A DNA stretch of 64,000 bases from Nocardioides cavernaquae (lineage in GTDB: Bacteria > Actinomycetota > Actinomycetes > Propionibacteriales > Nocardioidaceae), in assembly GCF_003600895.1 (NCBI RefSeq), contig NZ_QYRP01000002.1, positions 3,162,001-3,226,000 of the forward strand. The letters are read 5' to 3'. Under the pieces are notes generated by a model. The model was given only the letters and a program-made list of their open reading frames with translations, was not told where the DNA came from and did not search any database. The position numbers were made by a program, and so were the translations under genes. Positions 1,622 through 33,822 of the stretch are shown piece after piece (position 1 is the stretch's first letter; each line of letters opens with the position of its first letter).

Positions 1622-4600
1622 CTACCGATAACTGTATGCATAGTGGAGAGAGTCGTAGCCAAAGGCGGCCCTGTCGAGTGCCGGTGCCGCACGGCGCTTG
1701 ATCGTATAGGCGCGGGCCAAAGGCTTCTGAAGGGCACGGCGTGCCTTGCCAGTCGTCGCCGCGCGGTGAGCTGCCCTAACGCGCGCGACGTTGGCCGTCG
1801 CTGCCAGTCGACCCCCGACTGGGATGAAGCTTGCTGCACCTCCGAGCGCGCCCCTGACCCCTCCGCGTCGATAGCCCTGCACGGTCTTATAGCCAGCGAT
1901 CCCATATGAGATTGCTGCAGCCGCGGTACAAATGGCGCACACACCCAAGGCCACGAGGCCGATGCCCAGTTGGACTGCTCCGACAATCTTCTTATGGTCG
2001 TCCGCCCAGTCCTTTGCCTTCTTGAATGCATCCTTGATGCTAAAGCCCCAACGTCCATCAAGGTCGACGCGATTCACTGGGTCTTGGGGGTACGCATAGG
2101 CGGTTGTGTTGCCGCCGAAGACAGGGTCGGTTGAGCTAAAGGAACCGGTTGCTGGGTTGTAGACCCGAACCCCCATGAGCATGAGTCCGGTGGCCTGGGT
2201 CGCGCGTTCCTTGGCGCCGAGCCATCCGTAGTTGAGGCCGTCCGTCTGGGATCCACCCGTTCCGGTCTTGTTGCCGTACTCGTCGCCGTCTGCCCAGCCG
2301 GTGATCCCGACACAGGGGCCGGCGGCGGGGATGTTCGCGGTGGTGACGACATCACCGTGCGGATTCGCGAGCGCGAGCTCAGCCTGCACAGTTCCGCCGC
2401 CGGCGGGGTTGGTCAGCGTGAGTCCGAGGTCTCCGCCGAGTGAGCCGGCGTAGCGGGTGGTCGCGGTCCCGGATGCGGTGACGAGGGTGGACCAGCCGGG
2501 GTTGTCGGATCCGTCGGTGTAGTGACGCGTGGTGGTGGACGTTGCCGCTTGTCCGATGGGACCGGTGGCTTCCGTCTGGCGGCGTCCGGCCTGATCCAGC
2601 GCGAACCCAGTCGTCTGGCCGTTCTGGGTGATCGAGGCGACGGCGTCGGTGTCGGTGTAGCCCAGCGTGATCGCCCCGTTCGCGGCGACGGGTGCATCGG
2701 TGGCGGGGATGGTTGTTTGGCGGCCGAACGCGTCATAGACGTACCCGCCGGTGAGCCTGTCACCGGCATCGTAGGACCAGTTCTTGGTGGTGACGCCGGT
2801 TGCGCCCGGCGTCTGGCAGGTGCCGTCGGCGTTACCTGGGGTGCGCGACAGCGACAGACGGTTGCCGTTCTTGTCGAAGCTGAACGCGCGGGTTTCGCAG
2901 GTTTCGTTGAGCGGTTCGCCAGTGATCGGATCGATGCCCGCCCCTATCGTGCTGGTGCGGTCATCGACCTGGGTCAGGCGGCCGGCCTTGTCGTACTTGT
3001 AGGCGCGGTCATACGCCGCAGCTGCGGCGGGTCCGGTGAGGCCATCGGTGGTGAACGCGGCACCGGCCGGGGTCCACTCGCGGCGGACGCGGCCGTTGAT
3101 GTCGTTCTCGGTCGACCAGCCCAGCCAGCCACCGTTGGAGTCGATGGTGGTGGTGCCGTCGCCGTTGTCGATGGTGACCTGGCCGGTGTATTCCATGCTG
3201 ACCGGCTCACCCGCCGCATCCACCAGGGTGGTTTGTGTCAGTCCGCCGGGAAGCTTCTGCTTCACGAGGGTGCCATCCGCGTTGTACGCACCGCCGAACT
3301 CAAGGGCACCGCCCGGTCCGCCGGTGACGGTGAGGGTGGTCGGCAGACCACGTCGGTCGGTGTCGCCGTTGGCGTCGGCGCCGTAGCCGTAGCCGTAGCT
3401 GGTGGTCCCCTTCGGGTCCACCACCTGCGTGATCCGTCCGATGCTGTCGAAGGTCGTCGTGGTGACCTCCCCGGCCGAGGGTTCGTAGGTCAGCGCGCGA
3501 CCCCACGAGTCATAGGTCGTGTTGATCGGGTCACCGACGTGGGCGCCGCCGGTAGTGGCCCACTGCTTGATCGGGAGGCCCGTCGCGGAGTCGTAGGTCG
3601 TTTCGCTGCCCTTGACCGACGTCGAGCCGGAGATTCCCGACGCGACCACGGTCGTGGCGACCGGTCGTGAGGCCGTGTCGTACGTCGCGGTGGTGGTGCG
3701 GGTTCCGCCGTTGGCCGACTCGACGGTGGTGGTCGGGGACAGGTAGGCGTTGTAGCCGGTGACCTTGGTCGAGATCAGGTCTTGGCCTGATGCCTGACCT
3801 GCGTAGTACGTGCGGCATGCCGCGCCGGCCCATTCGGGCTTGTTCCCACACGACGCGTCGTCGGCGTTGGTGCCGACGGTGTAGTAGATCGTCTTGCGGG
3901 TCCCGGCATCAGAGCCGGTGGCGGTGGGCTGCCGCTGGGCGATGACACGACCAACCGAGTCGTAGTCGCTGACGGTGGTGATGTCGCCCGATCCGCCATC
4001 GATGACGGTGGTTTGGGTGCGGGCCGCGCCGAGCTTCCACGCCGCGGTGTCGCTTGAAGACCCGTAGCTGATTTTGCTGACCTCGGCCGCCTCCAGGAAA
4101 CTGAGGTCGTCGGGGGCGACCGGTCCGCTGCTAATGGTGGTGGGCAGCGCCCAGCCGTGGCCGGTGTCGGGGTTGATCCCGCCATCCGGCGAGGCCTCGT
4201 CATAGGTCATAGCGGTGTGCGGGCGGGCCTGCACGCGGTCACCGTTCTTCAGGGTGACCCAACGGGTTGGTCCGTAGGTGTCGGTGACGATCGATCCGAC
4301 CGGGGTGGCGGCGGGGCCGTTGCTGGCGGTGTTGTAGACCGTGAGAGTGCCGGCTTGGCCGATGGTGGATTCACCGGACTTGATCGCCTGGATGTCCCCT
4401 GCGTCCAGTTCGAGGATCGGGTAGCCGTCGTCGTTGAACTGAGTGAACGTGGGCAGCCATTTGCCCGGTCCGTATTCGGCGGTGTTGATCGTGTAGCCAC
4501 GCGCGTCGGTGGCCTGGATGGAGGCGTAGGACCAGTCCCCCGTGGCGACTGCGGCCGGGTCGAGGGTGGTGATCGGCTTGTCGGGCCCGAAGACCGCTGC

Positions 4601-7600
4601 GGCGTAGGTCGGGGCCTTCGGCTGACCCCACACGGCGACACCGTTGGCCGACAGGTCCGGCAAGCCGGTCCCGGAGGTGGGAACGTCGTAGAGCACCGTG
4701 GCCAGCGTCGCGGTTCCGCCGCCCGCCGAGGCCGGATTGTCGCGCTTGACACGGGCCAGTTTCGTCGGGGTGCCGGCGTACTCAAGGTTGTACGGCGCAA
4801 GACCGGCCGGGGTGAGGGACGTGAGCCGGTCCGAGCTGTCGTAGGCGTAGCTCGTGGTCAGGGCCGGGGTCGGGCGCGGGTCCGTCACCGTGACCAGTCG
4901 GTGCTGGTCGTCGTACTTGTAGGTCGCGACATCGATCAGCGCTGTCGTCGATCCGCCGACGGCCGGGTTGAAGATGTTGAGGCTGATCTTCTTCACCTGG
5001 CCTGCCACATCGCCCGGCGTGCTGCTAGTCGCGGTCGTGGTGGTGGCGTAGGTGATGTCCAGGGCACGGCACCCCTTCGCCATCGGCGATCCGACCGCAC
5101 CGGTGCAGGTGACGGCGGGCGGGACCGGCGCAAGGATCCTGGTCACGCGGCCTGAGGAGGGATCGCGGGTGTAGGTCGTAGTGCCCGAGCCCGGCTCGGT
5201 GACGGACTCCGGGGCGAAGAGCGCATCGGTTGTGGCGGTGGCGGCGGTGGTGATCTTGAAGGTCGTGGTGACGCCGTCGGGGTCGACGATCGAGAACACC
5301 GTTGAGGTGCCGGATCCGGTGACGGTGGCCTTGACGCCTGCGTCGGCGGTGGCCTCATCGACCCCGTTCCAGGTGCCGGTTGCCAGGTTGGTGCCGGTGC
5401 GGCGCGTCCAGGTCGTCGGGGCGAACACCATCGGGTCCGCATCGTCGGCATACAGCACCAAAGTGCCGTCGACGAGGGTGTTGTCGATCAGCTGGAATCC
5501 CGCGAGTCCGGCATCGGAGCCGTCCAGGGACGCGGTCCAGCCCGGACCGAACACCGCTGCGGCCGGGTTCGGTTCACCGGCGAAGGTGGCGTGGGTGCGT
5601 GAGATCGACAGCGAACCGGTGTAACCGGGCACGACCACGTCGGTCGCGGCGGTGGTGAACTCACCGGTCCACAGGGCGACCTGCCCCGGCCCCGCGTCGG
5701 CGACGGGGAATCCAGCACCGAAGGCGTGCGGCACCCGCAGCACCCGCAGGGGCTGGCTGTTCCAGGTGCACTGCGTGGCGCCGCCGGTGTAGGTGGTGCA
5801 GACCTGCAGCTCAAGAGTCGCCGGCAGGCGCGGATCGAGGGCGACGTTGCCGTTGGCTGCATCGGTGGTTGCGGCCATGGTGTTCCAGGTGCCCGAGACC
5901 TTCAAACCACCCGTCGCCGGGTCCGAGGTGGCGCTCAGGTTCTGGGCGGTGTTCCAGCCAGTGGTCTCGTCATTGGTGGTCGACGCCAGTCGCCACTTCA
6001 ACACCGACGAAGCGGTCGTTCCCGACGGAGCTGGCGGGCTGTCCGCGGTGATCTTGATGTCGCCGGTGGTCACCGGCACGGGGTCGGTGGCCGGGCTCTC
6101 GACCGCGGTGGTGCCGTAACCGAAACCGTAATCGGACTCGCTGGAGGCGACGCTTGCGCGGCTGATAGCCGTCGCGGCAATACCGTGGCCACCCTTCGCC
6201 TTCGGCACCGTGACATTCACCTTGGCGACGTTCGGGTCCGAAGACGGCGTGATCTGGACCTTCTTCGCCAGTGCCCCGTCGACCGAGTAGCTGATGTAGC
6301 CCGGTGCGCTGTTGCCGGTGCCGGCGGCGCTGATCGTGCACGCCACATCGTTGGCGGGCGGGTTGTCGCTCCACGCCCCGTCGCTCTGGGTGGGGCACAC
6401 GATCATTGGCGCGGACGGTGCTGCCGCGGCCATCTTGAACGTCAGATATGCCGTCGACCACGACGACAGGTCCATGCCGTCGGTGGTCTGGGTGCGAACG
6501 AAGTAGGTGGTGTTGTCCGCCAAGGCCGTACCCACCGTGCAGTTCGCCATCGCCCCCGAGGCCACGTACGCGGAGTTGCACGAAGTCACCAACGAACCCG
6601 AGTTGAACGCGGTGGACGTGTGGATCTGGAAGTTGATCGAGACGTTGTTGGCGTTGCCGTCACTCGCCGCCGCGAAGAAGGCCGGCGTCGTGTCGGACGA
6701 GTACACCGTCGAGGCGTACGTCGAGGCCGACGAGACCGTCGGGACCGACGAGACTCCGGGATAGTTGTTGTAGCTGATCGACAGGTACGGATCCGTCGAG
6801 GACTCCAGGGAGCCGAACTCCTTGTACGCCACCGAATCGGTCTCGCTCTGCGCCCTCAGGCCCACCCGATTCACCGTCGAGGAATCAGCGGCCCAGGCCT
6901 GCACCATCGAGGTGACCGCCATCGAGGACCACCCCGCCGCGCACTCCGAGGAGTGGCCCTTCGCGTCCGTCAAGGTGCCGTACGTGGTGCCCATGGTCGG
7001 CTGGTTCGACCAGACCGTGGAGGTGGTGACATCCGCGCTGACGTCGCGCGCGTCGAAGGAACGCGCCGAGCAGTTCCATGAATAGTTCTCATACAGCTTC
7101 AAAGAAGCGCCCTTGATGACACGGCCCTTCAGCGTCCCGAGTTCGAACTCCAGGAACGAACGCGACACATCGCCAGCGCCGTTCTTGCCCAGCTTCAACT
7201 TCGTCGACGACGACTGCCCGCTCGATACCCCCTGGGTGACGTAGGTGTCGAAGGTCGTCGTCCGCGTCGTCGAGGTGTAGGTCGGGTCGATCGTGACCGG
7301 GAACTGCGTCGCCGGATCCACCAACCAGGCCGCGTCCGGCGACACCCGCAACGTCGCATGCCCAGGGTTGCGCTGGGTCACTGCCAGCGTCACTGGTGCA
7401 TAGTTGACCGGCTCCCCGGTGTGCTCGTCGACGCGCGAATCCCAGGCCACGGCAGCAGGAATGTGCGAAACGACCTTGTTCTTGGCATCGACAAAGTTGA
7501 TTGACCCGTCGCCCTGGGCCTTGGCGGTCAGACCCTTGGTCTTCAACTGCAGGTCCCACGAGACCGCGGCACCTTCGGTCGGGCGTTCGTCAAGGACGAA

Positions 7601-8173
7601 GGTCTGCTCGAACCCGGTGCGGCGCGACTCCAAGACAACGTCCACACCCGGAGCCACATCCGCGTAGGTCGCCTTCAAGCCGTCGACCGTCGGCTTGGTC
7701 AACTCGCCAGGCAGCACCATTGACACAGTGCGGCCCTGGCCCTCGTCGAGACGGATCTCGCCGGCCGGGCCCTTGCCTGGGAACTTCAGCCCCAGAGGGT
7801 GCGCCACCGGTTCGACCGAACCATCCGGCTGAGCCGCCAGATCGAGATTGACCTCCACCCACTTGCCCTGCGAGTCCTTGAACCGCTGCACACCCAGGTG
7901 ATTCTCGGTGGTCCACGTGCCATCCGGGTTCGCCCACGTCGAGGACCGCTCGGTTCGCTGAGAGGTGTCCTCCACACGCTTGCCCTGCGAACGCGCCGTC
8001 AACGCAGCCGACATCGCATCAGGACGCTCCGCCACCACCGTAGCCCGCGCCGGCACAGACTTCCCCGGCCTCGCCGCCTCCGCCGGCAGCGCCGCACCAG
8101 CAAAGGCAACAGCCAAGACCACCGATGCGGTCACAACAGGACGGGACACACGAGCGACGCGCAATGCGAGCAC
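1622..8173 (-). CDS. Large secreted RHS/YD-repeat protein with variable C-terminal tip
   Basis: The product is 2183 residues with a GTG start at 8173, supported by GAGGAG five bases upstream. An ATG 135 bases earlier gives an implausible N-terminus. Residues 1-34 form a signal peptide ending PAEA-A. Around residues 300-465 is a DNRLRE-like (CBM96-like) beta domain beginning VTIDPTYTS. From about 950 onward come many YD repeats (SYAYDSSDRL, YKYDKAGRL, DSIGRITQV). The RHS core is near 1925-2040, with GARVYNPATG-like GVRVYNPATGSFSSTDP and the boundary NRVDLDGRWG. The last ~145 residues diverge: a charged stretch, a hydrophobic segment (IVGAVQLGIGLVALGVCAIC) and a basic tail. RHS proteins deliver C-terminal toxins; this tip matches no toxin I recognise. 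Confidence 0.85.
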   Translation of the reverse strand: MLALRVARVSRPVVTASVVLAVAFAGAALPAEAARPGKSVPARATVVAERPDAMSAALTARSQGKRVEDTSQRTERSSTWANPDGTWTTENHLGVQRFKDSQGKWVEVNLDLAAQPDGSVEPVAHPLGLKFPGKGPAGEIRLDEGQGRTVSMVLPGELTKPTVDGLKATYADVAPGVDVVLESRRTGFEQTFVLDERPTEGAAVSWDLQLKTKGLTAKAQGDGSINFVDAKNKVVSHIPAAVAWDSRVDEHTGEPVNYAPVTLAVTQRNPGHATLRVSPDAAWLVDPATQFPVTIDPTYTSTTRTTTFDTYVTQGVSSGQSSSTKLKLGKNGAGDVSRSFLEFELGTLKGRVIKGASLKLYENYSWNCSARSFDARDVSADVTTSTVWSNQPTMGTTYGTLTDAKGHSSECAAGWSSMAVTSMVQAWAADSSTVNRVGLRAQSETDSVAYKEFGSLESSTDPYLSISYNNYPGVSSVPTVSSASTYASTVYSSDTTPAFFAAASDGNANNVSINFQIHTSTAFNSGSLVTSCNSAYVASGAMANCTVGTALADNTTYFVRTQTTDGMDLSSWSTAYLTFKMAAAAPSAPMIVCPTQSDGAWSDNPPANDVACTISAAGTGNSAPGYISYSVDGALAKKVQITPSSDPNVAKVNVTVPKAKGGHGIAATAISRASVASSESDYGFGYGTTAVESPATDPVPVTTGDIKITADSPPAPSGTTASSVLKWRLASTTNDETTGWNTAQNLSATSDPATGGLKVSGTWNTMAATTDAANGNVALDPRLPATLELQVCTTYTGGATQCTWNSQPLRVLRVPHAFGAGFPVADAGPGQVALWTGEFTTAATDVVVPGYTGSLSISRTHATFAGEPNPAAAVFGPGWTASLDGSDAGLAGFQLIDNTLVDGTLVLYADDADPMVFAPTTWTRRTGTNLATGTWNGVDEATADAGVKATVTGSGTSTVFSIVDPDGVTTTFKITTAATATTDALFAPESVTEPGSGTTTYTRDPSSGRVTRILAPVPPAVTCTGAVGSPMAKGCRALDITYATTTTATSSTPGDVAGQVKKISLNIFNPAVGGSTTALIDVATYKYDDQHRLVTVTDPRPTPALTTSYAYDSSDRLTSLTPAGLAPYNLEYAGTPTKLARVKRDNPASAGGGTATLATVLYDVPTSGTGLPDLSANGVAVWGQPKAPTYAAAVFGPDKPITTLDPAAVATGDWSYASIQATDARGYTINTAEYGPGKWLPTFTQFNDDGYPILELDAGDIQAIKSGESTIGQAGTLTVYNTASNGPAATPVGSIVTDTYGPTRWVTLKNGDRVQARPHTAMTYDEASPDGGINPDTGHGWALPTTISSGPVAPDDLSFLEAAEVSKISYGSSSDTAAWKLGAARTQTTVIDGGSGDITTVSDYDSVGRVIAQRQPTATGSDAGTRKTIYYTVGTNADDASCGNKPEWAGAACRTYYAGQASGQDLISTKVTGYNAYLSPTTTVESANGGTRTTTATYDTASRPVATTVVASGISGSTSVKGSETTYDSATGLPIKQWATTGGAHVGDPINTTYDSWGRALTYEPSAGEVTTTTFDSIGRITQVVDPKGTTSYGYGYGADANGDTDRRGLPTTLTVTGGPGGALEFGGAYNADGTLVKQKLPGGLTQTTLVDAAGEPVSMEYTGQVTIDNGDGTTTIDSNGGWLGWSTENDINGRVRREWTPAGAAFTTDGLTGPAAAAAYDRAYKYDKAGRLTQVDDRTSTIGAGIDPITGEPLNETCETRAFSFDKNGNRLSLSRTPGNADGTCQTPGATGVTTKNWSYDAGDRLTGGYVYDAFGRQTTIPATDAPVAANGAITLGYTDTDAVASITQNGQTTGFALDQAGRRQTEATGPIGQAATSTTTRHYTDGSDNPGWSTLVTASGTATTRYAGSLGGDLGLTLTNPAGGGTVQAELALANPHGDVVTTANIPAAGPCVGITGWADGDEYGNKTGTGGSQTDGLNYGWLGAKERATQATGLMLMGVRVYNPATGSFSSTDPVFGGNTTAYAYPQDPVNRVDLDGRWGFSIKDAFKKAKDWADDHKKIVGAVQLGIGLVALGVCAICTAAAAISYGIAGYKTVQGYRRGGVRGALGGAASFIPVGGRLAATANVARVRAAHRAATTGKARRALQKPLARAYTIKRRAAPALDRAAFGYDSLHYAYSYR

Positions 8174-8665
8174 GGAGACTCCTCGGAACGGAGGGCAACC
8201 AACAAGGGAGCCAGCTTCCGAGTCCGGCGAGCGCGAAGGTATCAACACGGCGAAGCCTGAACGCGCGAAGGGACAACCCGAGACGTCGCTGTTATCGGAT
8301 CGATACATTCACAGGAGGCGTTGATCCGATCGAGCCCTGCTAGGGGATAGCCGCGTCAATGCCCGACGAAGATCGGCCACCAACGCGCGCGTATTGCGCG
8401 TAATTACATGCCTACCTGCTGCGATTGCCGTGCTCTAGATAGGCAGCGCAGCCCGACGTGTGAGCGTCGACAGCAGGTGATGGTGCCCTAGGCGCGATTT
8501 CAGTACGTCACGCTCCGACCAAATCCCGCGAGGAACCGTTCTCACCTGCGCAGCCCGTGTGACATGCAAGCAGATTCGACGGTGGGCCGAGAAAGCTATG
8601 CGGCCATCGGCCACATGGCGCCATACTGATTGCTTCGCATCGCGCCAAATCGAGTCAGGACTTCA
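8174..8665. other. Divergent intergenic region, no gene seen
   Basis: These 492 bases separate the RHS gene (leftward) from the GHKL-ATPase gene (rightward), so both promoters should lie here. The only structure noticed is a short direct repeat, GCGCGTA, at about 8388 and 8397. No tRNA, terminator or clear sigma-70 promoter was recognised. A TTG-initiated extension of the next gene, from 8630, is possible but less likely. Confidence 0.4.
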
Positions 8666-9826
8666 ATGGCGGTTTCTGTTGGCCCTCAGAGGGTGCCGTT
8701 GCGTTCTCCCCTGCGTGCCGCAGATGTCGAGGGCTTGGCAGCACCGGCGTTCTCTGGCTGGGACCAGCAGATCGTCGCGGAGGGTCAGATTCGTTCAGAG
8801 TTCGGTGCCGATGCGCGACTGCTTGGCTGGCTGATGCGTCTGAGGAGTGAGCGGGGATTCAGCTTCCGCATTCCTGGCTTTGCTCCCCATAGCGACGACG
8901 ACGTCTGGGCCGATACGCCTAGGGCGCTATTGACGGAGTCTCTCAGCGGTGTCATTGCATCACGGTTGGCCAGCCAGGTCCTTGATGCGAGCGACCGCGA
9001 CGTCTCCGCACGGGTCATGGCCCTTCAGAAGGCAGTGATCGGGAAGACGAACGTGCTTGGAAACACGCACAACGTGTCTTATCTGATCGACGACAATTTT
9101 GAAGGACTGGGCCGAGCTGAGTTCATAGACCCAGAAGACGAGGACTTCAGCAGCCGACTCGCTGACACATTGGACTGGGAACTGAAGCGACGTGAGCTCG
9201 TCGGCCGCGACGCGACCAGCCAGCCCTCGTCTCAGCAGCTCCTTCAAGTCCGGCGGTTCCTCACCGAGGCACTTGAAAATACACAGCGGCATGCGACACG
9301 TGACCTCGCCAAGCGGCGCGTTGGAGGCGTCAGATTCTTGGCCGTTCGGCGACACTTCATTCGTGAGATCCAGACGACCATGGCGCCAAAAGAGAGTGGG
9401 CATCAGTCGCTCAGCCACTACCTGACCAGAGCGCGTGAACAGTTCGGCGATGTGGCGATGGTCGAGTTCACAGTTGCCGATTCCGGGATCGGCATTTCGG
9501 CTCACCACCGCAAGGATCTCGCGATCTACTCAGGTTCGATCGAGGAGGAGTTCGCCGCACTTCAGTCGGCTTTCGGGCTGCCCGAGGCGAACATGGGCTG
9601 GGAGGGCCTCGGACTCCCGAAAATTCAGGACTCATGCCGCGACCTGCGGGCCTTCCTCATGGTCCGAACTGGCCGGATCCTCGCTACACAGCATCAGTTG
9701 GACACGTCCTCCAACTCCTCGGACTTAGTGCCGTTGACTCGAGAAACTCGCCCGCTTCCATTCTTGGCTGGGACCTCAATCACGATCGTCGTCCCCTGGG
9801 TCGACCTACACGAGTCTCTCTTCTAG
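8666..9826 (+). CDS. GHKL/HSP90-type ATPase-domain protein of a two-gene cassette
   Basis: The ATG at 8666 gives 386 residues; a TTG at 8630 is the alternative start. The C-terminal half carries all Bergerat-fold motifs: N box EALENTQRHA near residue 202, G1 DSGIGI near 271, G2 GWEGLGLPKI near 312 and G3 GTSITIVVP near 368. There is no histidine-kinase phosphoacceptor domain and no membrane segment. The N-terminal ~190 residues match nothing I recognise. The stop is ten bases before the next gene, so the two are probably co-transcribed. Base composition looks less GC-rich than the core genes. The family holds HSP90, gyrase B and MutL relatives, and standalone members occur in phage-defence modules. 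The role here is inferred. Confidence 0.75.
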   Translation: MAVSVGPQRVPLRSPLRAADVEGLAAPAFSGWDQQIVAEGQIRSEFGADARLLGWLMRLRSERGFSFRIPGFAPHSDDDVWADTPRALLTESLSGVIASRLASQVLDASDRDVSARVMALQKAVIGKTNVLGNTHNVSYLIDDNFEGLGRAEFIDPEDEDFSSRLADTLDWELKRRELVGRDATSQPSSQQLLQVRRFLTEALENTQRHATRDLAKRRVGGVRFLAVRRHFIREIQTTMAPKESGHQSLSHYLTRAREQFGDVAMVEFTVADSGIGISAHHRKDLAIYSGSIEEEFAALQSAFGLPEANMGWEGLGLPKIQDSCRDLRAFLMVRTGRILATQHQLDTSSNSSDLVPLTRETRPLPFLAGTSITIVVPWVDLHESLF

Positions 9827-9836
9827 GCAGGCCACG

Positions 9837-12077
9837 TTGAGAGTCCAAGTGGCACTACTAGGGTCGAAGCGCGCCCGGGTCCTCGACACCGCCCAGCACG
9901 CTTCGGGGATCGCCGAGGTCTTGCTGATTGGCATTCCGCGGTATGGCGAACTATTCGATATCGATCGAAAGGTCCACGAGATCCGACGGCGGCTCAATGG
10001 AGCACCGGAGGTGGTCGTGCTTCGCGCACACAAACACGAGGCTCAGCGCCTCACGACTGCTCCAGGAGAGCTACCGTCTCGTGAGATTCGAGAGCTCTAT
10101 CGTCGGACGAACACACCTATCTACCTCCTCTCATACGAGTCAGGTGAACACACGCTCACTCTTCTCGCTGGGTCCCTCAAGCGCGGAGCATCCCTAGATG
10201 ACAGCGTGCCCCTGTTGCGCCGTGCCGAACTGAACTACTACGCCGGCGAGTCAGGCGCTCTCCTCCCACAAAGCGGCACCTTCCATTACGCCGGCCCAAA
10301 CGGTCAGCACTACCGATCGTTCCTTCGAGTCGGCTCCGCGATTCAGTCGCCGGACTCATTGGACGCTGTTTCGTTCTGGCTGCTCCCGTATGTCGGGCCG
10401 TCAACCATGGTGATCGTCGAAACGACGACGATTTCGATTATCGGCATGCACCTCGCCCAGTACCTCCGTGAAGAGGCGTATGAAGATCGAGCAATCACAG
10501 CGGTGCACGCTCTTCCGGGCTACGGCCGCCCCGCCCTCAGACAATTCATCGCACGAACCCGGGCCACGAGGCCGGTGATAGTCGACGGGGCGTCAGCGCT
10601 CGTAGTCATCAGCGTCAGCAGCACCGGCGTCATGGCCGAGATTGCACGAAGTGCCGCTCATGATCTCGGATTCACCACAACCGCTGCCGTGGCACTCTAC
10701 GGAACTCCTGCGCGGGCGACAGACGCGGGCACCTCCGACCAAACATCGGCTTTGAACGATGTCTTCTGTTTCCTGGAGAGCGATCTTGGGCGGTCTCCGT
10801 CAAATGACTGTGAGATGTGTGATCCAAAGGCGCCCCACTCAAGCCCCGCCTTGCCTATCTCCCCGGTTACCTTCACCGTGGGAGTAGCCGAGTCTGTTGT
10901 GCCTGCCAAACTGGACGCCGTGTACGCGACCGAGGCTAAGGAGTTCGTCGACCGCTACCGCACAACAGACGCATTTTCAGTCCACCGCGACGACCCCTCG
11001 GATGGGCGCCACCACGCAGTTCACATTGACGTCGCGAAGCTTCTCGGCCACAAGGACAACATCTTCAAGGTTCGGTTCTTGGCGAAGGTAGATGAGCTTG
11101 CTGGGCAAGTCGACACAATTCTTGCTCCGGACCACTTGACAGCACGATCGATGGCCAAACTCGCTGGCGATCGACTCAAGATTCCCGTCGTCGTCAGGAA
11201 CCCACAGGATCTGGGCGCAGCAACAGCTGAAGAGATCGCTCATCTCAATGCATCGCGACTGCTCATCATCGACGATGCCATCGTTAGTGGCGACCGACTC
11301 AGGTCCTTTCGTGACGAACTCATCGAGAAGGGCTACGACCACGAGGAATGCCATGCCCTCGTCGGAGTGCTTCGCACGCAGACCGACTCCGAGACGCGCG
11401 GCATTGCGAACATCGTGCACCAGCTTGGCCCCACTGAGAAGCAGTTGCACGCAGTCGAACAGGTACTCTTACCCAACTGGCAGGAAGACGACTGTCCGTG
11501 GTGCTGGGAACAGAATCTCCTTCATAGCCGGGGAAAGCTCGGCATCAATAGTGAGCAACTTGCAAACCGAGAGACCGTCCTCACAAGCGCAAACGGGCTT
11601 CGAGAGGTGCTGTTCTGGGGGTGGAACGACGATCAGTTTCGTCTCGGCCCAAACAGCGTCTTTGGCCATAAGGACCTGAACCAAGCGCAAGTGTTTGTCG
11701 TGGTTTCGTCAGCGCTCCAGAGCATGCGGAACAGGAACGTTCTGGACGAGCAGTTCACGCCGCCCGTCTCGAAGGTATTGACGCCTGAGTTCTGGACGCA
11801 CGGGCGGTTCTACGTGAATGTTGTTGTGGCATCGATCCTTCGCGCCGCGCGGCGACATGACCTTCTGGCACCGACTCCCGGAAAGGCCTACTTGTCGGCT
11901 GCAGAGAGCCGTCTAGGGAAGAGGAAGGGCACCAACCTTCGAATGGAAGTCCTTCTCGGAATGGCGGCAGGGAAGATGCCAACGGCCCAGATGGCAGCGG
12001 CCGTAGCACTTGAAGAGGCCGACCCCGCAATAGGTTCGTTGTTCAATCAACTACTTGGCCTATCGCCCAAACAATAG
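9837..12077 (+). CDS. Double phosphoribosyltransferase-like protein with two CxxC motifs
   Basis: The product is 746 residues from a TTG at 9837, preceded by AGGCAGG; a GTG at 9849 is an alternative. A type I PRTase core lies at about residues 425-520: a strand VDTILAPDHLTA, then LLIIDDAIVSGD near 474, which matches the hydrophobic-DD-hydrophobic-SG PRPP-binding loop. A second, degenerate Rossmann-like unit (TMVIVETTTISIIG) lies near residue 195, with another hydrophobic strand (ALVVISVSSTG) near 255. CEMC (~325) and CPWC (~553) bracket the PRTase core and could bind zinc. The C-terminal ~150 residues are unassigned. Pairing with a GHKL ATPase is unlike purine or pyrimidine salvage loci. A conflict or nucleotide-signalling role is inferred. 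Confidence 0.65.
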   Translation: MRVQVALLGSKRARVLDTAQHASGIAEVLLIGIPRYGELFDIDRKVHEIRRRLNGAPEVVVLRAHKHEAQRLTTAPGELPSREIRELYRRTNTPIYLLSYESGEHTLTLLAGSLKRGASLDDSVPLLRRAELNYYAGESGALLPQSGTFHYAGPNGQHYRSFLRVGSAIQSPDSLDAVSFWLLPYVGPSTMVIVETTTISIIGMHLAQYLREEAYEDRAITAVHALPGYGRPALRQFIARTRATRPVIVDGASALVVISVSSTGVMAEIARSAAHDLGFTTTAAVALYGTPARATDAGTSDQTSALNDVFCFLESDLGRSPSNDCEMCDPKAPHSSPALPISPVTFTVGVAESVVPAKLDAVYATEAKEFVDRYRTTDAFSVHRDDPSDGRHHAVHIDVAKLLGHKDNIFKVRFLAKVDELAGQVDTILAPDHLTARSMAKLAGDRLKIPVVVRNPQDLGAATAEEIAHLNASRLLIIDDAIVSGDRLRSFRDELIEKGYDHEECHALVGVLRTQTDSETRGIANIVHQLGPTEKQLHAVEQVLLPNWQEDDCPWCWEQNLLHSRGKLGINSEQLANRETVLTSANGLREVLFWGWNDDQFRLGPNSVFGHKDLNQAQVFVVVSSALQSMRNRNVLDEQFTPPVSKVLTPEFWTHGRFYVNVVVASILRAARRHDLLAPTPGKAYLSAAESRLGKRKGTNLRMEVLLGMAAGKMPTAQMAAAVALEEADPAIGSLFNQLLGLSPKQ

Positions 12078-12200
12078 AGGCACGCTTCCCCGACTGCTTG
12101 CCCAGTCGATAGGTGCCGCTCGGCCGTCCTCGCGCAAGCCGCCGCCTGCAGCATCAATCTGCTTCGGAGAGCGGCGCGTACCTGCCCTCTGAGGTGGTCT

Positions 12201-12560
12201 CGTCCTGACCTGCACTTCACGAACGCCGGCGCCGAGCACCTGCGCGTTCGTATCGGCGTCGAGCAGTGGCACAGGGAGGTCGACGGCAGTTTTGCGAAGC
12301 TTGAGCCGACCTTCCACGACATGGTGGCCTTCCACGACATGGTGGCCATCGACAGCACCGCCAGGGAGGCATGCGCCCGGTTCAGGAAGGGCGACTCGTT
12401 CGTCGCCAGTGGCTACGTCCACGAGTACGAGGTGGACCGTACGGGCGTGATCAAGGAGGAGTTCGTCGCGCGCAAGCTCGGTCACAACGTCAACAGGTCG
12501 GCTTGCGAGGTGCAGCGAGGTCGCCTCGCGCCGGCGAGAGCGGCCGATACCCTGCCGGTT
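12201..12560 (+). pseudogene. Remnant of a single-strand DNA-binding protein gene (SSB-like)
   Basis: One frame reads PDLHFTNAGAEHLRVRIGVE, then FHDMVAIDSTAREACARFRK and GDSFVASGYVHEYEV, matching the order of SSB OB-fold segments (PELRFTPSG, FHNVVAWGKLAENAA, KGDRVIVTGR). No start codon or N-terminal first strand is visible upstream, where the frame reads RRAARTCPLRW. An exact 18-base tandem duplication (12312-12347) doubles FHDMVA inside the fold. The frame runs on past 12560 without an acidic SSB C-terminal tail. This fits a decayed plasmid-type SSB of the element. A short expressed protein from the ATG at 12321 cannot be excluded. Confidence 0.5.
12312..12347 (+). repeat. 18-base tandem duplication inside the SSB remnant
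   Basis: TTCCACGACATGGTGGCC occurs twice back to back. The copies are identical, so the duplication is recent. It keeps the reading frame and repeats FHDMVA. Confidence 0.85.
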
Positions 12561-12661
12561 CTGGGCCGAGCCAACGGCCTCAGAGTTCACGACGCTATGT
12601 GCCTAGATCTGGCGACACCCCGATCTTGGATGCCCAGGGTCGCCGCCCTCGCCGCAGACCG

Positions 12662-13747
12662 TCAGTCGACCAGGCGAAGGTGGTCGGAGCTAGTGCGGCC
12701 ACCCGTGCTGGGTGCACCACCAACAGCCGTAGGCGTGAGGCCGAGCATGTAGGCCTGTACTTCGGCGGCGTGAAGTCCCAGGTCGGCGGCGATCGATTGG
12801 GCGCCGAGGCCGTGCGCACGGAGTTGCTGCATGGCCTTGGTGAGGAGCTGGGAAGACTCGTGCGCGATTCCTCCCGGCTCGCCGCGCCGGTAGCCCATTC
12901 TGGAGAGGTCAACGCAGACGGTTCGGTATGCCCATTCGGTCATGAGGTTGAGTTCGTTCGCTCGGTGCGCCATGGCCATCGCGGCGACGTTCCAGCGCTT
13001 CTTGGCATGGAGGATGCGCTGGACATGGGCGTTGTGGAGCCCTTGGGCCAAAACTCCTGCCTTGGGCATGAGAAACGCTGCCGCGAACTGGTTGGCTTCG
13101 GCTTCTGCTTCCGGGCCGTTGGGAGTCTGATCTTCGCCGTGAAGGACGAGGTGGCCGAGTTCGTGGGCAGCGTTGAACCGGTGGCGTTCGCCGGACTTCT
13201 CGCGGCTCAGGAAGATAAACGGTTGGCCGTGCCAGTTCAGGCAATAGGCATCGAGGTCCTTGGTGTCGTCGGTCAGGGAGAAGATGCGTATGCCGTGGGC
13301 CTCGAGGAGGTGGACTAGGTTCCCGATCGGCTGTTCGCCGAGGCCCCAGCGGGCCCGTACTTCCTGTGCTGCTAGCTCAGGGTCCCGTCCCGTCAGTGTC
13401 GGTACGTCTGCTGCGGGGAGGTCGAATCGGTCCTCGAGCCATTCGTTAATCAGGATCGCGATGCGGCCTGAGTTGAGTCCGCGGTCGCGCGTGCGCGCGG
13501 TCATCTTGCTCAGCGCGCGGAAACTGACTGCCTCAACAGGGATCTCGTCGAGGTCGTCGCCGGTGAGAAAGTCTTCTGCGACGCCGAGCACTGCAGCGAG
13601 CGTGATCAGTGTCTGCGGCGTTGGGTCCTGGTGCTGGTTTTCGTAGGTAGACAAGCTAGCGCGGCTCAACCCCGTCTCCTGGGCGAGCTTTGTCAGCGTC
13701 CATCCGCGGCGCTTGCGTGCCGCCGCTAAGCGTGTGGGGTTCAGCAT
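12662..13747 (-). CDS. HTH (XRE) - ImmA/IrrE metallopeptidase
   Basis: The 361-residue protein begins with a Cro/C1-type helix-turn-helix at residues 5-60 (RLAAARKRRGWTLTKLAQ, then LSRASLSTYENQ). A DUF955 zinc-protease domain follows, with NAAHELGHLVLH (HExxH) near residue 194 and a distal acidic helix EAEANQFAAAFLMP that supplies the third ligand. ImmA of ICEBs1 cleaves the element's repressor after DNA damage, and IrrE/PprI proteins act on DdrO-type repressors. This fused form probably controls excision or expression of the island. It sits 42 bases after the partner gene, on the same strand. Confidence 0.85.
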   Translation of the reverse strand: MLNPTRLAAARKRRGWTLTKLAQETGLSRASLSTYENQHQDPTPQTLITLAAVLGVAEDFLTGDDLDEIPVEAVSFRALSKMTARTRDRGLNSGRIAILINEWLEDRFDLPAADVPTLTGRDPELAAQEVRARWGLGEQPIGNLVHLLEAHGIRIFSLTDDTKDLDAYCLNWHGQPFIFLSREKSGERHRFNAAHELGHLVLHGEDQTPNGPEAEAEANQFAAAFLMPKAGVLAQGLHNAHVQRILHAKKRWNVAAMAMAHRANELNLMTEWAYRTVCVDLSRMGYRRGEPGGIAHESSQLLTKAMQQLRAHGLGAQSIAADLGLHAAEVQAYMLGLTPTAVGGAPSTGGRTSSDHLRLVD

Positions 13748-13788
13748 GGCGGATGCTGCCTCAATCTCTGGTCGATCGAAAGGACCGG

Positions 13789-14445
13789 TCAGCGCATGGC
13801 GACGTCGACCGAGTACGCGTCGCCATCACTGGCCGGCGGCTCCTCAACCGTGGTGGCGTCGTTCGACTCGGGTTCGTGTCGAGAGATGCGCGGAAGGAGG
13901 ATGCGCTCCTCCCATTCGGTGATCATCCCGTCCGTCATGCGAACGGGCAGTGAGAGCTCGGCGTAGATGTAGTCCGGGGTGACTCGCTGAAGCAGGAACC
14001 ACACGTTCTCGAGCTCGGCAGGTTCCACGGTCGGCTCGTCGAATGCCTCGCCGAGGTCCAATGAACCCTGGTCGGCGTTCTGTCGCACGGCGATGGCGGT
14101 GAGTTCACCCTTGGGGTTCTTAGTGCGCGGCACCCTGCCAGGGATCTCCACGCCGGTGGCCTCGTCACCGGAACTCGTGACGATCGAGAATTCGTGGCTG
14201 GGATGCACCGTGCGACAGAAGTTCTTGCCATCATTGACACCCCAGCCGAGCGGAACCAGCTCCTCGCGCAGGAACCGTACGGTCTTGAAGTAGCGGGTGG
14301 TGCCCTCGGCCGTCGGCGGCTCGAGGCCAGTCGTGTGCTTGGCTTCCGCGTCAGCCCGCAGGAGCGTGCGGATGATCTGGTCGCCAGCGATCCCGAGCGT
14401 GTGAAGTCGGTATTCGGCGGTACCGTCGACTGCGACGATCGTCAT
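13789..14445 (-). CDS. Conserved-looking hypothetical protein upstream of the ImmA gene
   Basis: The start at 14445 (MTIVAVDGTAEYRLHTLG) has AGGAGA seven bases upstream, a better site than the ATG six codons earlier. It gives 218 residues. No known domain was recognised. The sequence is mixed alpha/beta with an acidic C-terminal tail (PESNDATTVEEPPASDGD) and no membrane segment. It is the first gene of a two-gene operon with the HTH-ImmA protease, behind a palindromic promoter region. It may be the protease's substrate, sensor or antagonist, but nothing in the sequence decides this. Confidence 0.6.
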   Translation of the reverse strand: MTIVAVDGTAEYRLHTLGIAGDQIIRTLLRADAEAKHTTGLEPPTAEGTTRYFKTVRFLREELVPLGWGVNDGKNFCRTVHPSHEFSIVTSSGDEATGVEIPGRVPRTKNPKGELTAIAVRQNADQGSLDLGEAFDEPTVEPAELENVWFLLQRVTPDYIYAELSLPVRMTDGMITEWEERILLPRISRHEPESNDATTVEEPPASDGDAYSVDVAMR

Positions 14446-14482
14446 GGGCGTCTCTCCTGCCACTCTGCGGAAACTTGACGAA

Positions 14483-14514
14483 ATACTACCTCATATGAGG
14501 CGGAAAAGTGTCAA
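14483..14514 (-). promoter_or_regulatory. Promoter and palindromic operator of the ImmA operon
   Basis: Read on the minus strand there is TTGACA (complement of 14509-14514), the perfect 12-base palindrome CCTCATATGAGG (14489-14500) and TAGTAT (complement of 14483-14488). The spacer is 20 bases, longer than the ideal 17, and contains the palindrome. The start codon lies 38 bases downstream. The HTH of the ImmA protein is the most likely binder, making this an autoregulated switch. The binding partner is inferred. Confidence 0.5.
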
Positions 14515-14907
14515 GCAGAGTTTGGTGTGTCGGAACTGTCCAGCCCCGGCCCCAGCAAAGGTCCCGAACCTCGCTCAGGGCCGTCCGTTGCACCTTAGGC
14601 GGCGGACGAACCTCCATCACCCATCGGGGGATCACACTCGAGACCGAAGCTCACTCCAGCAACAGCACACCGCTGACATTCACCCGGTGGTCATCGGCCA
14701 CCGCACGGATGTAGTCCGTCAACGGCCTCCGTGTCGACAGCAGCGCGGTTTTCCACAGGTTGCGATATGCAGTTTGTGGCGCGAGGGCTCGGGTTGTGCT
14801 GGGCTACTCCCAGCCAACTTCATAGTTTCGCAGGACCGCTCTCATCTCGGGGAGACGGCACCGCGCCGCTCCCCCGAGGTCTCCATTCAAGTCTCGGGAG
14901 GACTTCC
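14515..14907. other. Leader region of the conjugation operon, no gene seen
   Basis: About 390 bases separate the ImmA-operon promoter from the first type IV secretion gene. ORFs crossing it look non-coding. It ends with TCGGGAGGACTTCC, a good ribosome-binding site before ATG 14908. No hairpin terminator, oriT-like repeat or clear promoter was recognised. Confidence 0.4.
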
Positions 14908-15171
14908 ATGAACACGCTTGTCGCTGCCTTCGTGGCAACTGCTTCACCGGACCTCAACTCGGACGGCATCGTCCAGTGGGGCGTCAAGAACATCATTCCG
15001 ATCATCCTGCTGTTCGTCGGGATCGGAATTATCGCCTCGGCTCGCAAGGGCCAGATGAGCCAGAACGCGCTGACGGTCTCCAACGTCCTGTTGGGCTGCG
15101 TCGTCATCGCAGGTGCGGCCTTCTTCTACGGCTTCGCCGACAACATCGCGCAGTTCGTTTTCCAAGGCTGA
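14908..15171 (+). CDS. VirB2/TrbC-like small membrane protein of the conjugation system
   Basis: The protein has 87 residues and starts MNTLVAAFVATASPD after the ribosome-binding site GGGAGG. Two hydrophobic helices (residues 28-46, IIPIILLFVGIGIIAS, and 58-80, NVLLGCVVIAGAAFFYGF) are joined by a short basic loop. This is the layout of pilin-like VirB2/TrbC proteins. It heads the type IV secretion operon of the SCO6880 type. A longer in-frame start at 14731 is rejected because it lacks a ribosome-binding site and has unlikely composition. The pilin role is inferred from topology and position. Confidence 0.7.
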   Translation: MNTLVAAFVATASPDLNSDGIVQWGVKNIIPIILLFVGIGIIASARKGQMSQNALTVSNVLLGCVVIAGAAFFYGFADNIAQFVFQG

Positions 15172-15174
15172 CCG

Positions 15175-15585
15175 ATGCTGATCAGGCCTGACGACGAGGT
15201 CTACCGCGTCGACGCAGTCTGGCTCGGCCCGCGGGGGCTCACGCTTCCCTGGGCGGCCAGGTACTCGGCGTACGGGATCTGGGTCGTGTTGTTCGTCAGC
15301 ATCCTCTTGATCGAGGCCGTGCTGCCGATGCGAGTGAGCCTGCCACCAGTGTGGGAACTGGTGTTGAGCATCCTCGCGACCTACGCACTGACCGGCGTGA
15401 TCGATCACGAACGTCCATTGTCCAGCGCGCTGCAGACGCTCCGAGCCGAGCTGACTGCACCCCGCGCACCCACGGAGGCCCGGCCGGTGCTGCTCGACGC
15501 AGCGCGCGTCCGGATGAGGGAGAACCATGTTCACGAGGCACCCCACCGAAGCCGCAAAGGGCCGACTGGCGCTTCGCAACATTGA
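15175..15585 (+). CDS. PrgI/VirB3-like membrane protein
   Basis: The product has 136 residues starting MLIRPDDEVYRVDAVWLGPR. Two adjacent hydrophobic segments (residues 30-50 and 60-76) match the PrgI/VirB3 family that always precedes the VirB4-type ATPase. It starts three bases after the previous stop. Its last 59 bases overlap the ATPase gene in another frame, so the tail after about residue 117 is constrained by both genes. It probably anchors the ATPase at the inner membrane. Confidence 0.7.
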   Translation: MLIRPDDEVYRVDAVWLGPRGLTLPWAARYSAYGIWVVLFVSILLIEAVLPMRVSLPPVWELVLSILATYALTGVIDHERPLSSALQTLRAELTAPRAPTEARPVLLDAARVRMRENHVHEAPHRSRKGPTGASQH

Positions 15586-18049
15586 CGACCACCTGTGCTT
15601 CACCGCAGACGAGGTCTGGGCCTGGTACGTCCTGCCGACTCAGCTGTGGGCATTCCGATCCGACACCCAACGAGGCCAGCTTCTCCACGGGTTCGGCGAC
15701 GGGCTCGCTTGGCTGGCTGGCCACCGGCTCCACCTAAGGGTGACGTCGCGGCCCTACCCGACTGGCGAGTGGGCCAAGCAGCTGCACGGCCTGACTCCAG
15801 CGCCGCTCGAGACGCCGGGGCAGCCACCGTGGAGCGAGCACCTGGTCGAGATGCAGCTGCACCTGCGCCACCAGACGATGGCCGAGAAGGAGGTCTATTT
15901 GGGCGTTCGGATCAAGTCCCGGCCGCCGTCGCATCGGATGATGTCGGCGATCACGCGGCGTCCGACAGACATCGAGCACGCTCGTGTCCTGCCGGAGTTG
16001 GAGCGGATCACCGAGACCGTCGCGCTCCCCGGACTCGAAGGTCGGCCCGCAACTGCTCGGGAGTTGGAGTGGCTGCTGCGACGCTCGATCGGTCTCGGCA
16101 TGCCGTCTCCCACGGACCTCTCCCCCACGCCCGACCCCGCCTGGGATCGAGAGGACCTGGCGTCCTTCACCGACCGGGTGGAGTACGCCGCCCAGCCGCT
16201 CGGCCGCACGGTCAAGCTGACCTCCCGCGGCGCAGGATCGGCGGTCGAGCGGCATGTGGCGGTCCTGTCCGTGGGCCGGCTCGAGGAAATCGAAGCCCCC
16301 GATCCTGCCCACGAGCCTTGGCTCTCCCACACGGACCGGCTGCCGTTCCCCGTCGAGTGGTCAGCGCAGTTCGACGTGCTCTCCGGGGTCGACGCCCGGC
16401 GGTCTATCCAGCACAAGCTCCTGGTTGTCAGGGACATGCAGCGGCATTACGCCGAGCACGACCTGGACGAGCCGCTGGCACTCGACCGTCAGGCGCGTCA
16501 CGCTCGGGAGGTCGAGGACCAGATGACGCGTGGTGTTGACGTCGCCGCGGCCCGAATCCATGGCTGGTTCCGGGTGGCCGTATCTGCCCCGACCGAGCAG
16601 GAGTGCCTGGAGCGGGTCCGCAAGGTCACTACTTCCTATCGCTCGCGCCGAGTGACGATCGAGCATCCGAAGGCGCAGTACGGATTGCTGCGGGAGTTCA
16701 TCCCGGGCGAACCGTTGGCCACGACGGCGTACCGGCGCCGGCTACCAGCGCTCTACCTGGCGGCGGGAGTCCCGACAGCGTCGAGCCGTCTCGGTGACCG
16801 TCGCGGTCCGTACGTCGGCTACACGGCCGGCGCCTCTCGTCGCGCGGTCATGTTCGACACGCACTACGCCACCGAGGTGAAGGAGACCTCCGGGCTCGTT
16901 CCCGTCGTTGGCGGGCTCGGTGCAGGCAAGTCGGTGCTCCTCGGGCAGATCGTCTACGAGGCCGTACGCCGCGGCATCCCCTCGGTTGTTCTCGACCCTT
17001 CGGGACCACTAGCGCGACTGACCGAGCTCCCTGAGTTGGCCCCGCACAGCGAGCACATCGATCTGACGACGGCTGCGTCCGGCACCCTGAACCCGTTCGA
17101 GGTGGTCGCCTCTCCCCTCCGGAGCGCCTTCACCACCGAGGATGCCTTCACCGAGGCTGAGGTTTTCGCGGCCCAGGATCGCAAGCTGCTGGCGATGGAT
17201 GTCGTCAAGATGCTGCTCCCCGCGTCCGTTGATGCGTTGCCGGCGACATCGCTGGTCGTCTCCGATGCTGTTCGCACGACGGGCGGGTCCCCGCATTCAT
17301 CGCTCTGGGATGTGGTCAAGCACCTGGAGAACCACCATAATCCGCACGGGCGCGTGGTGGCGAACTACCTGCGGGACATGTCCGAACTCCCGCTCTCGCG
17401 GCTGTTCTTCCCGAGTGCACAGGCGACGGGCGAGCGGTTGCGGGCCAACCTCACCGTCCTGACCATGCCGGGGCTCGTCCTGCCACCGAAGTCCGTGCCC
17501 CGCGATCACTGGTCGACATCCGAACAGCTCGCGGTGCCTCTGCTGCACCTGGCGTCCTGGTACGCCACCCGCGCGGTCTACGGCCGACAGATGCAGGCAC
17601 GCAAACTCGTGGCCCTAGACGAGACCCACTTCCTCGGTGAGTGGTCAGCCGGCCGCGCGCTCTTCACCCGACTCGGCCGAGACTCCCGCAAATGGAACAC
17701 CTGCGTCCTCGCCGCCTCCCAGAACCCATCCGACGTCCTCGGCATGGATGTCGCCAACTTCATGTCCGCCGCGTTCGTGGGACGGCTCGAGGACGAAGAG
17801 GCCGCCCGGGACGGACTGCGGATGCTCCGCGTGCCGACCGGAATCGGCTACGAGCGAGCGCTCGCGAACCTCTCCTCCGCCCGCGGCCAGTCGGCCTTCC
17901 GTGAATTCGTCATGCGCGACGTCGATGGCAACGTCGACAAGCTGCGCGTCGACCTAACCGGCAACCCCGGACTGCTTGAGGCGCTCAACACGACAGCAGG
18001 GCGTCGTACAGCAAATGGTTCCAAGTCGGATGGCGAGGCCGTCGCATGA
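15527..18049 (+). CDS. VirB4-like conjugation ATPase (SCO6880 family)
   Basis: The 840-residue protein has an ATG at 15527 preceded by GAGGGAGAA. The N-terminal ~400 residues resemble the VirB4/CagE region. The ATPase domain has Walker A GGLGAGKSVL near residue 463 and Walker B KLVALDETHF near 693, and the later ASQNPSDVLG is a typical HerA/VirB4 sensor segment. It powers pilus or channel assembly and substrate transfer in type IV secretion. It overlaps both neighbours, PrgI upstream and the VirB6-like gene by ATGA downstream. Confidence 0.85.
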   Translation: MFTRHPTEAAKGRLALRNIDDHLCFTADEVWAWYVLPTQLWAFRSDTQRGQLLHGFGDGLAWLAGHRLHLRVTSRPYPTGEWAKQLHGLTPAPLETPGQPPWSEHLVEMQLHLRHQTMAEKEVYLGVRIKSRPPSHRMMSAITRRPTDIEHARVLPELERITETVALPGLEGRPATARELEWLLRRSIGLGMPSPTDLSPTPDPAWDREDLASFTDRVEYAAQPLGRTVKLTSRGAGSAVERHVAVLSVGRLEEIEAPDPAHEPWLSHTDRLPFPVEWSAQFDVLSGVDARRSIQHKLLVVRDMQRHYAEHDLDEPLALDRQARHAREVEDQMTRGVDVAAARIHGWFRVAVSAPTEQECLERVRKVTTSYRSRRVTIEHPKAQYGLLREFIPGEPLATTAYRRRLPALYLAAGVPTASSRLGDRRGPYVGYTAGASRRAVMFDTHYATEVKETSGLVPVVGGLGAGKSVLLGQIVYEAVRRGIPSVVLDPSGPLARLTELPELAPHSEHIDLTTAASGTLNPFEVVASPLRSAFTTEDAFTEAEVFAAQDRKLLAMDVVKMLLPASVDALPATSLVVSDAVRTTGGSPHSSLWDVVKHLENHHNPHGRVVANYLRDMSELPLSRLFFPSAQATGERLRANLTVLTMPGLVLPPKSVPRDHWSTSEQLAVPLLHLASWYATRAVYGRQMQARKLVALDETHFLGEWSAGRALFTRLGRDSRKWNTCVLAASQNPSDVLGMDVANFMSAAFVGRLEDEEAARDGLRMLRVPTGIGYERALANLSSARGQSAFREFVMRDVDGNVDKLRVDLTGNPGLLEALNTTAGRRTANGSKSDGEAVA

Positions 18050-24918: not shown

Positions 24919-25514
24919 TCGTCGTCACCCATTTCGGTTCGGTCTCTCACACTGTTCTGATAGCTCGTTTCGCTGCTCGGGACGGCGACCTGGAAGTCGT
25001 CCACGGCAGCCTGAACCACCGCGACATCAAGCCCATCCACTACGAGAATTCTTCGCAGCTCGTCGAGTGGATCGAGGAGCGGCTTGTCGTGGGCGGTTGG
25101 GAGGGGCAGGAGCGGACGAAGAGACCGAGAAACACCCGCCCTGGTCGGAGCAACTCCGATTCTTACCAACCGTCGAGCAAACCGAAGGTTGTTCACGAGA
25201 TCCGCGATCGGTTCTGTCTCTTCGGTCGTGGCCTCCTGCGCACACAGGAACACTACGAACGCGTCCCACCGTTTGCGATTTGGCGGTCCCGCCACCAGCC
25301 TCTCGCTCAGTGAGCGACTTACTAGCGGCTCGATTTCGAGGAGGTGTTGCAAGGTGATCGGCGCGGCAATCACAGCGATGTTGTCGTCGTTCTCCACCAA
25401 GAGCACCTGCGCACCCTCGATGCCAGCCTTTTGAACTACGTAACCGGCACCGGACATGACGGATTCAGACAACTCAAGCAGTTCAAGGTCCGCAAGTTCG
25501 GCAGGGACGGTCAC
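24915..25514 (-). CDS. Middle component of the SIR2/Rad50-like operon (LmuC/ABC-3C MC-like by position)
   Basis: The 199-residue soluble protein (MTVPAELADLELLELSESVM) overlaps both neighbours by four bases, so the three genes are almost certainly translated together. It has an early alpha/beta part with VLLVENDDNIAVIAAPI and a later acidic helical part. No named domain was recognised. In Lamassu and ABC-3C loci a small variable protein links effector and ATPase. That role is inferred from gene order alone. Confidence 0.65.
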   Translation of the reverse strand: MTVPAELADLELLELSESVMSGAGYVVQKAGIEGAQVLLVENDDNIAVIAAPITLQHLLEIEPLVSRSLSERLVAGPPNRKRWDAFVVFLCAQEATTEETEPIADLVNNLRFARRLVRIGVAPTRAGVSRSLRPLLPLPTAHDKPLLDPLDELRRILVVDGLDVAVVQAAVDDFQVAVPSSETSYQNSVRDRTEMGDDE

Positions 25515-28876: not shown

Positions 28877-29082
28877 TGTCGACCGCAGTGGCAGCCATGA
28901 GGGAGGACCTGACAGCGGCGTACCGCCTGCTGAGGGAAGCAGGCGAGGAGGTTCACCGCGCCGCAACTCTCGTTGACCGGTACTCCCCCTCTATCGCTGA
29001 CCAGACGCTCTCAACCTTGTCGCTGCTCGAAGACGGGGCCAGCCGCCTGGAGCGGGCGATCCGCCAACTGGAGTCACGGTGA
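28876..29082 (+). CDS. Small helical protein 3 of 3
   Basis: The 68-residue protein (MSTAVAAMREDLTAAYRLLR, then GASRLERAIRQLESR) looks helical or coiled-coil. The ATG at 28876 shares its A with the preceding TGA, and the stop overlaps the FtsK-like gene's GTG start. Function is unknown. The tight operon suggests a role in transfer or copy control. Confidence 0.55.
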   Translation: MSTAVAAMREDLTAAYRLLREAGEEVHRAATLVDRYSPSIADQTLSTLSLLEDGASRLERAIRQLESR

Positions 29083-33720: not shown

Positions 33721-33739
33721 TCCCTCAGTTAGTCCCTCA
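33716..33739 (+). repeat. Two tandem copies of a 12-base repeat at the integrase stop
   Basis: GTTAGTCCCTCA occurs twice without a gap, the first copy including the integrase stop codon. It lies between the integrase and the tRNA 3' end, where arm-type integrase or Xis sites are expected. That role is inferred. Confidence 0.6.
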
Positions 33740-33813: not shown

Positions 33814-33822
33814 TCATGGTGG

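Follow-up and report, generated by a model that had tools for sequence, protein, structure and literature searches.

Introduction

ParaMORC proteins are described as GHKL ATPases of restriction-modification systems (PMC2292703), and the authors describing VcSduA (Shedu type I-D) hypothesise that its GHKL domain controls the nuclease (PMC12137116). The locus reported here, from Nocardioides cavernaquae, shares with both a GHKL ATPase in a defence context and differs in the partner, which is a nuclease or helicase in paraMORC and VcSduA and a phosphoribosyltransferase (PRTase)-fold protein in our case. It lies in a stretch of 64,000 nt (assembly GCF_003600895.1, contig NZ_QYRP01000002.1, positions 3,162,001-3,226,000 of the forward strand) that we call the window and whose numbering is used below. 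Two genes, A (8666-9826) and B (9837-12077), stand ten bases apart on the plus strand, as an earlier note on this DNA had stated. The reading we favour, and hold with moderate confidence, is that A is a GHKL switch and B a PRTase-fold effector under its control, and that the pair is a divergent PDC-M65 member and a candidate anti-phage system.

Type I PRTases such as APRT and OPRT share with B the fold of its second unit and the motif of the loop for phosphoribosyl pyrophosphate (PRPP); in B, the PRTase unit is embedded in a 746-aa protein with further domains. Weak matches to the PRTase effector of type III retrons (PRTase_III-A; residues 462-496, E 0.0089) and to Pfam PRTase-CE (residues 439-501, E 0.017) are confined to the PRPP-loop region and do not extend across B; a retron-type PRTase was dropped as a candidate because the similarity is found only there. 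No reverse transcriptase occurs among the window genes scanned, no dedicated retron search having been made, and no Rfam match falls in 8000-16000. The one tandem PRTase structural match to B is with PRPP synthetase, whose PRTase-fold domains are likewise in tandem; the root-mean-square deviation is 24.3, so the two halves do not superpose together, and PRPP synthetase is absent from the PDB sequence matches of B.

Correspondence to the catalogued candidate PDC-M65

The earlier note took the pair to be undescribed. Profile matches say otherwise: they identify it with PDC-M65, a candidate defence system listed with components A and B in PADLOC-DB 2.0. The note's own reservation, that this might be a known system under another name, was thus justified as far as cataloguing goes and not as regards experiment, for no experimental description or anti-phage activity of PDC-M65 was found in the literature searched, which did not cover bioRxiv preprints. 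A 2024 preprint by Payne et al. is said to be the source of the PDC series, from which we infer that PDC-M65 is described there. In the portions available of the DefensePredictor paper (PMC13092281), two figure legends give PRTase and HATPase as abbreviations and nothing more; either label may or may not refer to the PDC-M65 family.

The window agrees with PDC-M65 in that both components match, adjacent and on one strand. B aligns with positions 129-683 of the 763-position profile (E 2.7e-13, 47 bits) and A, weakly, with positions 99-284 of 398 (E 1.1e-4, 19.3 bits, the PADLOC thresholds being not known). Most of the relatives tested match as well: all seven B homologues P0002-P0008, 7/8 proteins from loci L005-L008, and nine of the ten proteins tested from L024-L028, in a scan that excluded the two L029 proteins and the smaller of the L026 B pieces. 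At L025, L027 and L028 scores reach 84-120 bits for A and 210-361 bits for B. Since the highest-scoring B, that of L025, attains 361 bits against 47 bits in the window, the window copy is, by profile score, a divergent, outlying branch of PDC-M65. Unlike the relatives at L025, L027, L028 and L029, the window branch retains the unit-2 PRPP loop and the CPWC motif described below. What is new here is this branch position, together with the counts of reciprocal pairing and the way conservation is distributed along B.

Gene A, a stand-alone GHKL ATPase

All four motifs of the Bergerat fold are found in A, which stands alone, just as the earlier note had read it.

8666-9826, plus strand: gene A, stand-alone GHKL (Bergerat-fold) ATPase of 386 aa, PDC-M65A-like
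9260-9301, plus strand: N box of gene A, LTEALENTQRHATR
9467-9502, plus strand: G1 box of gene A, FTVADSGIGISA
9596-9622, plus strand: G2 box of gene A, GWEGLGLPK
9764-9784, plus strand: G3 box of gene A, LAGTSIT

No motif residue varies among the 12 aligned A proteins (the L029 row of this alignment starts within its open reading frame (ORF), at a hand-chosen point), which argues for an ATPase role. The protein ends 16 residues past the GT of G3. Histidine kinase identity was ruled out by the lack of any Pfam match to a HisKA/DHp phosphoacceptor domain, either in window A (E up to 1) or in the 12-member A set (E up to 0.1), and Pfam reveals no recognisable output domain in either. A PDB sequence search with A gave no match. 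The predicted structure of A is of poor quality; the closest folds are histidine-kinase-type and anti-sigma-factor domains, and Foldseek alone, queried with this model, returned nothing at E 0.001.

Pairing and distribution of the two genes

Hidden Markov models of A and B were run over ORFs of at least 60 aa, taken from the window and from 15 retrieved loci. B-type hits fall at 13 distinct places, and at 11 of these (the window, L005, L006, L007, L008, L024, L025, L026, L027, L028 and L029) A lies directly upstream on the same strand. Spacing between the two ranges from a 29 nt overlap to a 14 nt gap, as measured on the longest ORFs except at L005, where the annotated start was used. The unpaired hits, L003 and L004, are weak, lone ORFs of 225 and 235 aa. 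P0010, the nearest relative of window A (44% identity), and P0002 both lie on contigs of 4,156 bases, which may be one and the same. At L026 (6349-8522, minus strand), B is interrupted and forms two ORFs, through either decay or assembly error; A is open, and SIR2 with pAgo is found nearby.

Seven of 398 Pseudomonadota genomes carry B (E 3.2e-296 to 4.5e-6). The same seven carry A at E <=3.6e-92, and two further genomes show partial A matches near E 5e-6; the chance of such a coincidence is about 3e-15, a figure that applies to related genomes and to an A model that included those seven. The earlier note had allowed that the two families might rarely occur together; both sets of counts point the other way.

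Elsewhere B is scarce. An order-level draw for Rhizobium has it in 1/397 genomes, the Rhizobium genome itself, and the phylum draw in 3/296, of which one is the genome of the window and the others are the weak hits L003 and L004. Profile searches found it in none of 58 congeners and none of 37 other relatives. Pattern searches gave 40 matches in GTDB contigs, three of them confirmed, and 14 in viral contigs, none confirmed. With P0006 as the query there was no match in phage records or plasmids; window B as the query retrieved two plasmid records, both of one Cupriavidus megaplasmid. When the protein database was searched by profile a second time, no homologues past the first eight appeared. 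These distributions bear on another concern of the earlier note, that B might serve housekeeping salvage. Were B a salvage or metabolic PRTase and A its accessory ATPase, the PRTase fold would be accounted for; this reading was rejected on the 0/58 count in congeners, and the other relatives, the phylum draw and the low-GC, mobile setting (G+C 0.59-0.62 in 2-kb intervals across 8-13 kb) also speak against it, making it very improbable indeed. The data support the view that the pair is mobile, conserved and not housekeeping.

Architecture and conservation of gene B

9837-12077, plus strand: gene B, PRTase-fold protein of 746 aa, PDC-M65B-like
10404-10703, plus strand: unit 1 of B, Rossmann-like beta-alpha-beta by secondary structure (residues ~190-289)
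10611-10628, plus strand: S-x4-G loop of unit 1, SVSSTG (residues 259-264)
10809-10820, plus strand: first CxxC, CEMC (residues 325-328), not family-wide
10941-11474, plus strand: unit 2 of B, type I PRTase fold by structural matches (residues ~369-546)
11259-11300, plus strand: PRPP-loop motif, LLIIDDAIVSGDRL (residues 475-488)
11493-11504, plus strand: second CxxC, CPWC (residues 553-556)

The TTG start of gene B agrees with the N-termini of aligned relatives. Unit 2 is assigned a type I PRTase fold from the predicted structure, whose Foldseek matches include PurR with cPRPP (1p4a); regions outside residues 367-558 were barely tested in this search. By sequence, window B reaches none of the Pfam PRTase cut-offs, the top PRTase-family match among 12 members has E 0.0021, and PDB matches are all weak, the best being OPRT (E 0.08). 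The unit-1 and unit-2 loops align with each other in an hhalign comparison of the two units, at a probability below 1% and E 0.07; an N-terminal control region scores equally well, and the profile similarity between the units is not significant.

Conservation was examined in an alignment of 17 rows, which includes neither the interrupted L026 B nor the weak hits L003 and L004. The clear type I PRTase loop that the earlier note had seen is indeed complete in window B, with its acidic pair and [ST]G. Across the family, the pattern [DE][DE]x3[ST]G is complete in 11/17 proteins; it is missing in P0008, L025, L027, L028, L029 and the Cupriavidus copy, which retains the acidic pair and not the full pattern. 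The S-x4-G loop of unit 1 is present in 17/17. From this difference, the complete PRPP loop of unit 2 is, within the alignment, a branch feature, and the conserved loop sits in unit 1. The note had called unit 1 a degenerate Rossmann-like unit: the Rossmann-like part stands, and it is this unit that holds the loop kept in all 17 proteins. Its two CxxC motifs flanking the PRTase core are likewise real in window B and not typical of the family, both being present in only 5/17 proteins, one in 9/17 and none in 3/17; a zinc ribbon was accordingly ruled out as a defining feature of B. Besides Met1, the residues F162, S259, G264, W555 and R631 are invariant, and R669 and E704 nearly so.

The same alignment weakens the case for placing the functional core of B at the clear PRTase loop, because six of the 17 proteins do without a complete loop and the pair is retained. 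For this reason, that unit 2 is a working phosphoribosyltransferase attacking nucleotide pools or making a nucleotide signal, along the lines of the earlier note, seems to us a tentative possibility, on the unlikely side; nor does any separate signal-reading effector recur beside the pair among the neighbours scanned. Somewhat more doubtful is an exchange of roles in which B is the sensor, its PRTase folds only binding a nucleotide or PRPP-type ligand that changes on infection, as in PurR or PyrR, and A is the output, its ATPase or ATP depletion delivering the effect. The invariance of the A motifs in 12/12 proteins set against a B loop complete in 11/17, the PurR structure among the matches of B, and the kinase-type and anti-sigma-factor folds closest to A would all suit this arrangement. 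It fits poorly with the absence of a recognisable output domain in A and with the size of B, whose conserved residues beyond the PRTase units (W555 and R631, and nearly R669 and E704) suit an effector.

Neighbourhoods of the pair

The earlier note placed the pair in an island with other conflict modules. In the window this is borne out by two genes downstream:

12662-13747, minus strand: RmrA-like neighbour with helix-turn-helix and IrrE-like domains (RmrA, E 3.8e-141)
13789-14463, minus strand: RmrT-like partner (RmrT, E 3.5e-49)

Conjugation-type genes are also among the window neighbours. Promoters and terminators near the pair are no more frequent than in shuffles.

Known or candidate defence genes lie near the pair at 9/11 loci, a count taken from chosen neighbours and with no background rate. 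Apart from the RmrA- and RmrT-like genes of the window and the L030 (L006) match given below, they comprise AVAST type 1 and AbiJ_NTD3 (L005), CBASS-type genes (2TM effector, cyclase, E1-E2) with MkoC directly after the pair (L008, Rhizobium sp. R711, 5587-13131), a Fic protein matching PDC-S04 (L024), a type I restriction endonuclease and NERD-UvrD (L025), the SIR2 and pAgo genes of L026, PDC-S01 and a JetD-like protein (L027), and PDC-M30A/M41A-like proteins (L029). No defence gene was found at L028, where one neighbour was scanned; at L007 none was scanned. L030, the same place as L006 (Verrucomicrobia locus), has a 787-aa PNP_UDP_1 protein (6863-9226, minus strand) 21 nt downstream of B that matches the PN-superfamily effector model and PDC-M60C, a single-locus hint of nucleoside chemistry nearby. 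Downstream of the L029 pair (12674-15915), genes that by eye we take to be glmS- and glmU-like may mark an attTn7-type site.

Two closely spaced, tightly linked genes in a mobile context might also be a toxin-antitoxin type addiction pair, A neutralising B, kept by the mobile element. The defence neighbours at most loci argue against this, as do the lengths of the two proteins (386 and 746 aa), which exceed the usual sizes of toxin-antitoxin modules, and we give the idea little credence. We conclude that the pair is real and coherent and probably a defence module.

Three other regions of the window deserve mention. A gene for a 2228-aa RHS-repeat protein, presumably of polymorphic-toxin type, adjoins the pair (1622-8308, minus strand). 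A second defence cluster may be present at 22723-26965 (minus strand), where a single run of genes encodes an SMC-like AAA ATPase, a protein of 199 aa and a SIR2_2 protein. Genes for an FtsK-like protein, RepSA and an integrase adjoin tRNA-Val/Cys/Gly at 29079-34103; this looks like one end of an integrative element, which we take to be pSAM2-like.

Discussion

The motifs, the unit-2 fold, the pairing, the defence neighbours and the mobility of the locus are computed features, and on them we base our model, in which a GHKL switch governs an effector of PRTase fold. A would act as an ATP-dependent switch through nucleotide-driven dimer closing, the family-specific N-terminal half serving as a sensor or docking surface. 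It would control B, a large and probably tandem PRTase-fold protein, which may have a nucleotide or phosphoribosyl compound as its target or as its ligand and so halt growth or phage replication. The S-x4-G loop of unit 1 would be the ligand-type loop common to all aligned B members; in the window branch, unit 2 may in addition transfer or remove phosphoribosyl groups, since it retains a complete PRPP loop. We infer ATP switching, the ligand and growth arrest; control by A and the effector role of B are suggested by the pairing, by the lack of a recognised output domain in A and by the VcSduA and paraMORC precedents.

Several observations weigh against this interpretation. The PADLOC scores of the window are low (19.3 bits for A); at E 0.001, PADLOC-DB returns nothing for P0010, the nearest A relative, or for the Cupriavidus B, and at E 0.1 nothing for L024 A. 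Distant B copies could have escaped the search of congeners and other relatives, since its model gave the window's own gene only E 1.8e-7. The A model for the Pseudomonadota count was built partly from the seven loci it recovered, and the defence-neighbour count is selective. Finally, with the PRPP loop incomplete in 6/17 B proteins, B is not necessarily a working PRTase.

A bolder version holds that the switch gates an enzyme with tandem PRTase folds that has its conserved site in the unit-1 S-x4-G loop rather than in the classical acidic PRPP loop, unit 2 being a dispensable, branch-specific phosphoribosyl site; the pair would then be a new biochemical type of immune module, its chemistry on a nucleotide-derived ligand unlike that of other defence systems. 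We think this improbable as it stands.

What had been a bare PADLOC candidate now has defined parts: ATPase motifs kept in 12/12 proteins, a B loop kept in 17/17, and a PRPP loop incomplete in 6/17. No characterised example combining a PRTase fold with GHKL control in defence was found in the literature searched, part of which was available as excerpts. If active, the pair would be a defence system of PRTase-fold chemistry under GHKL control.
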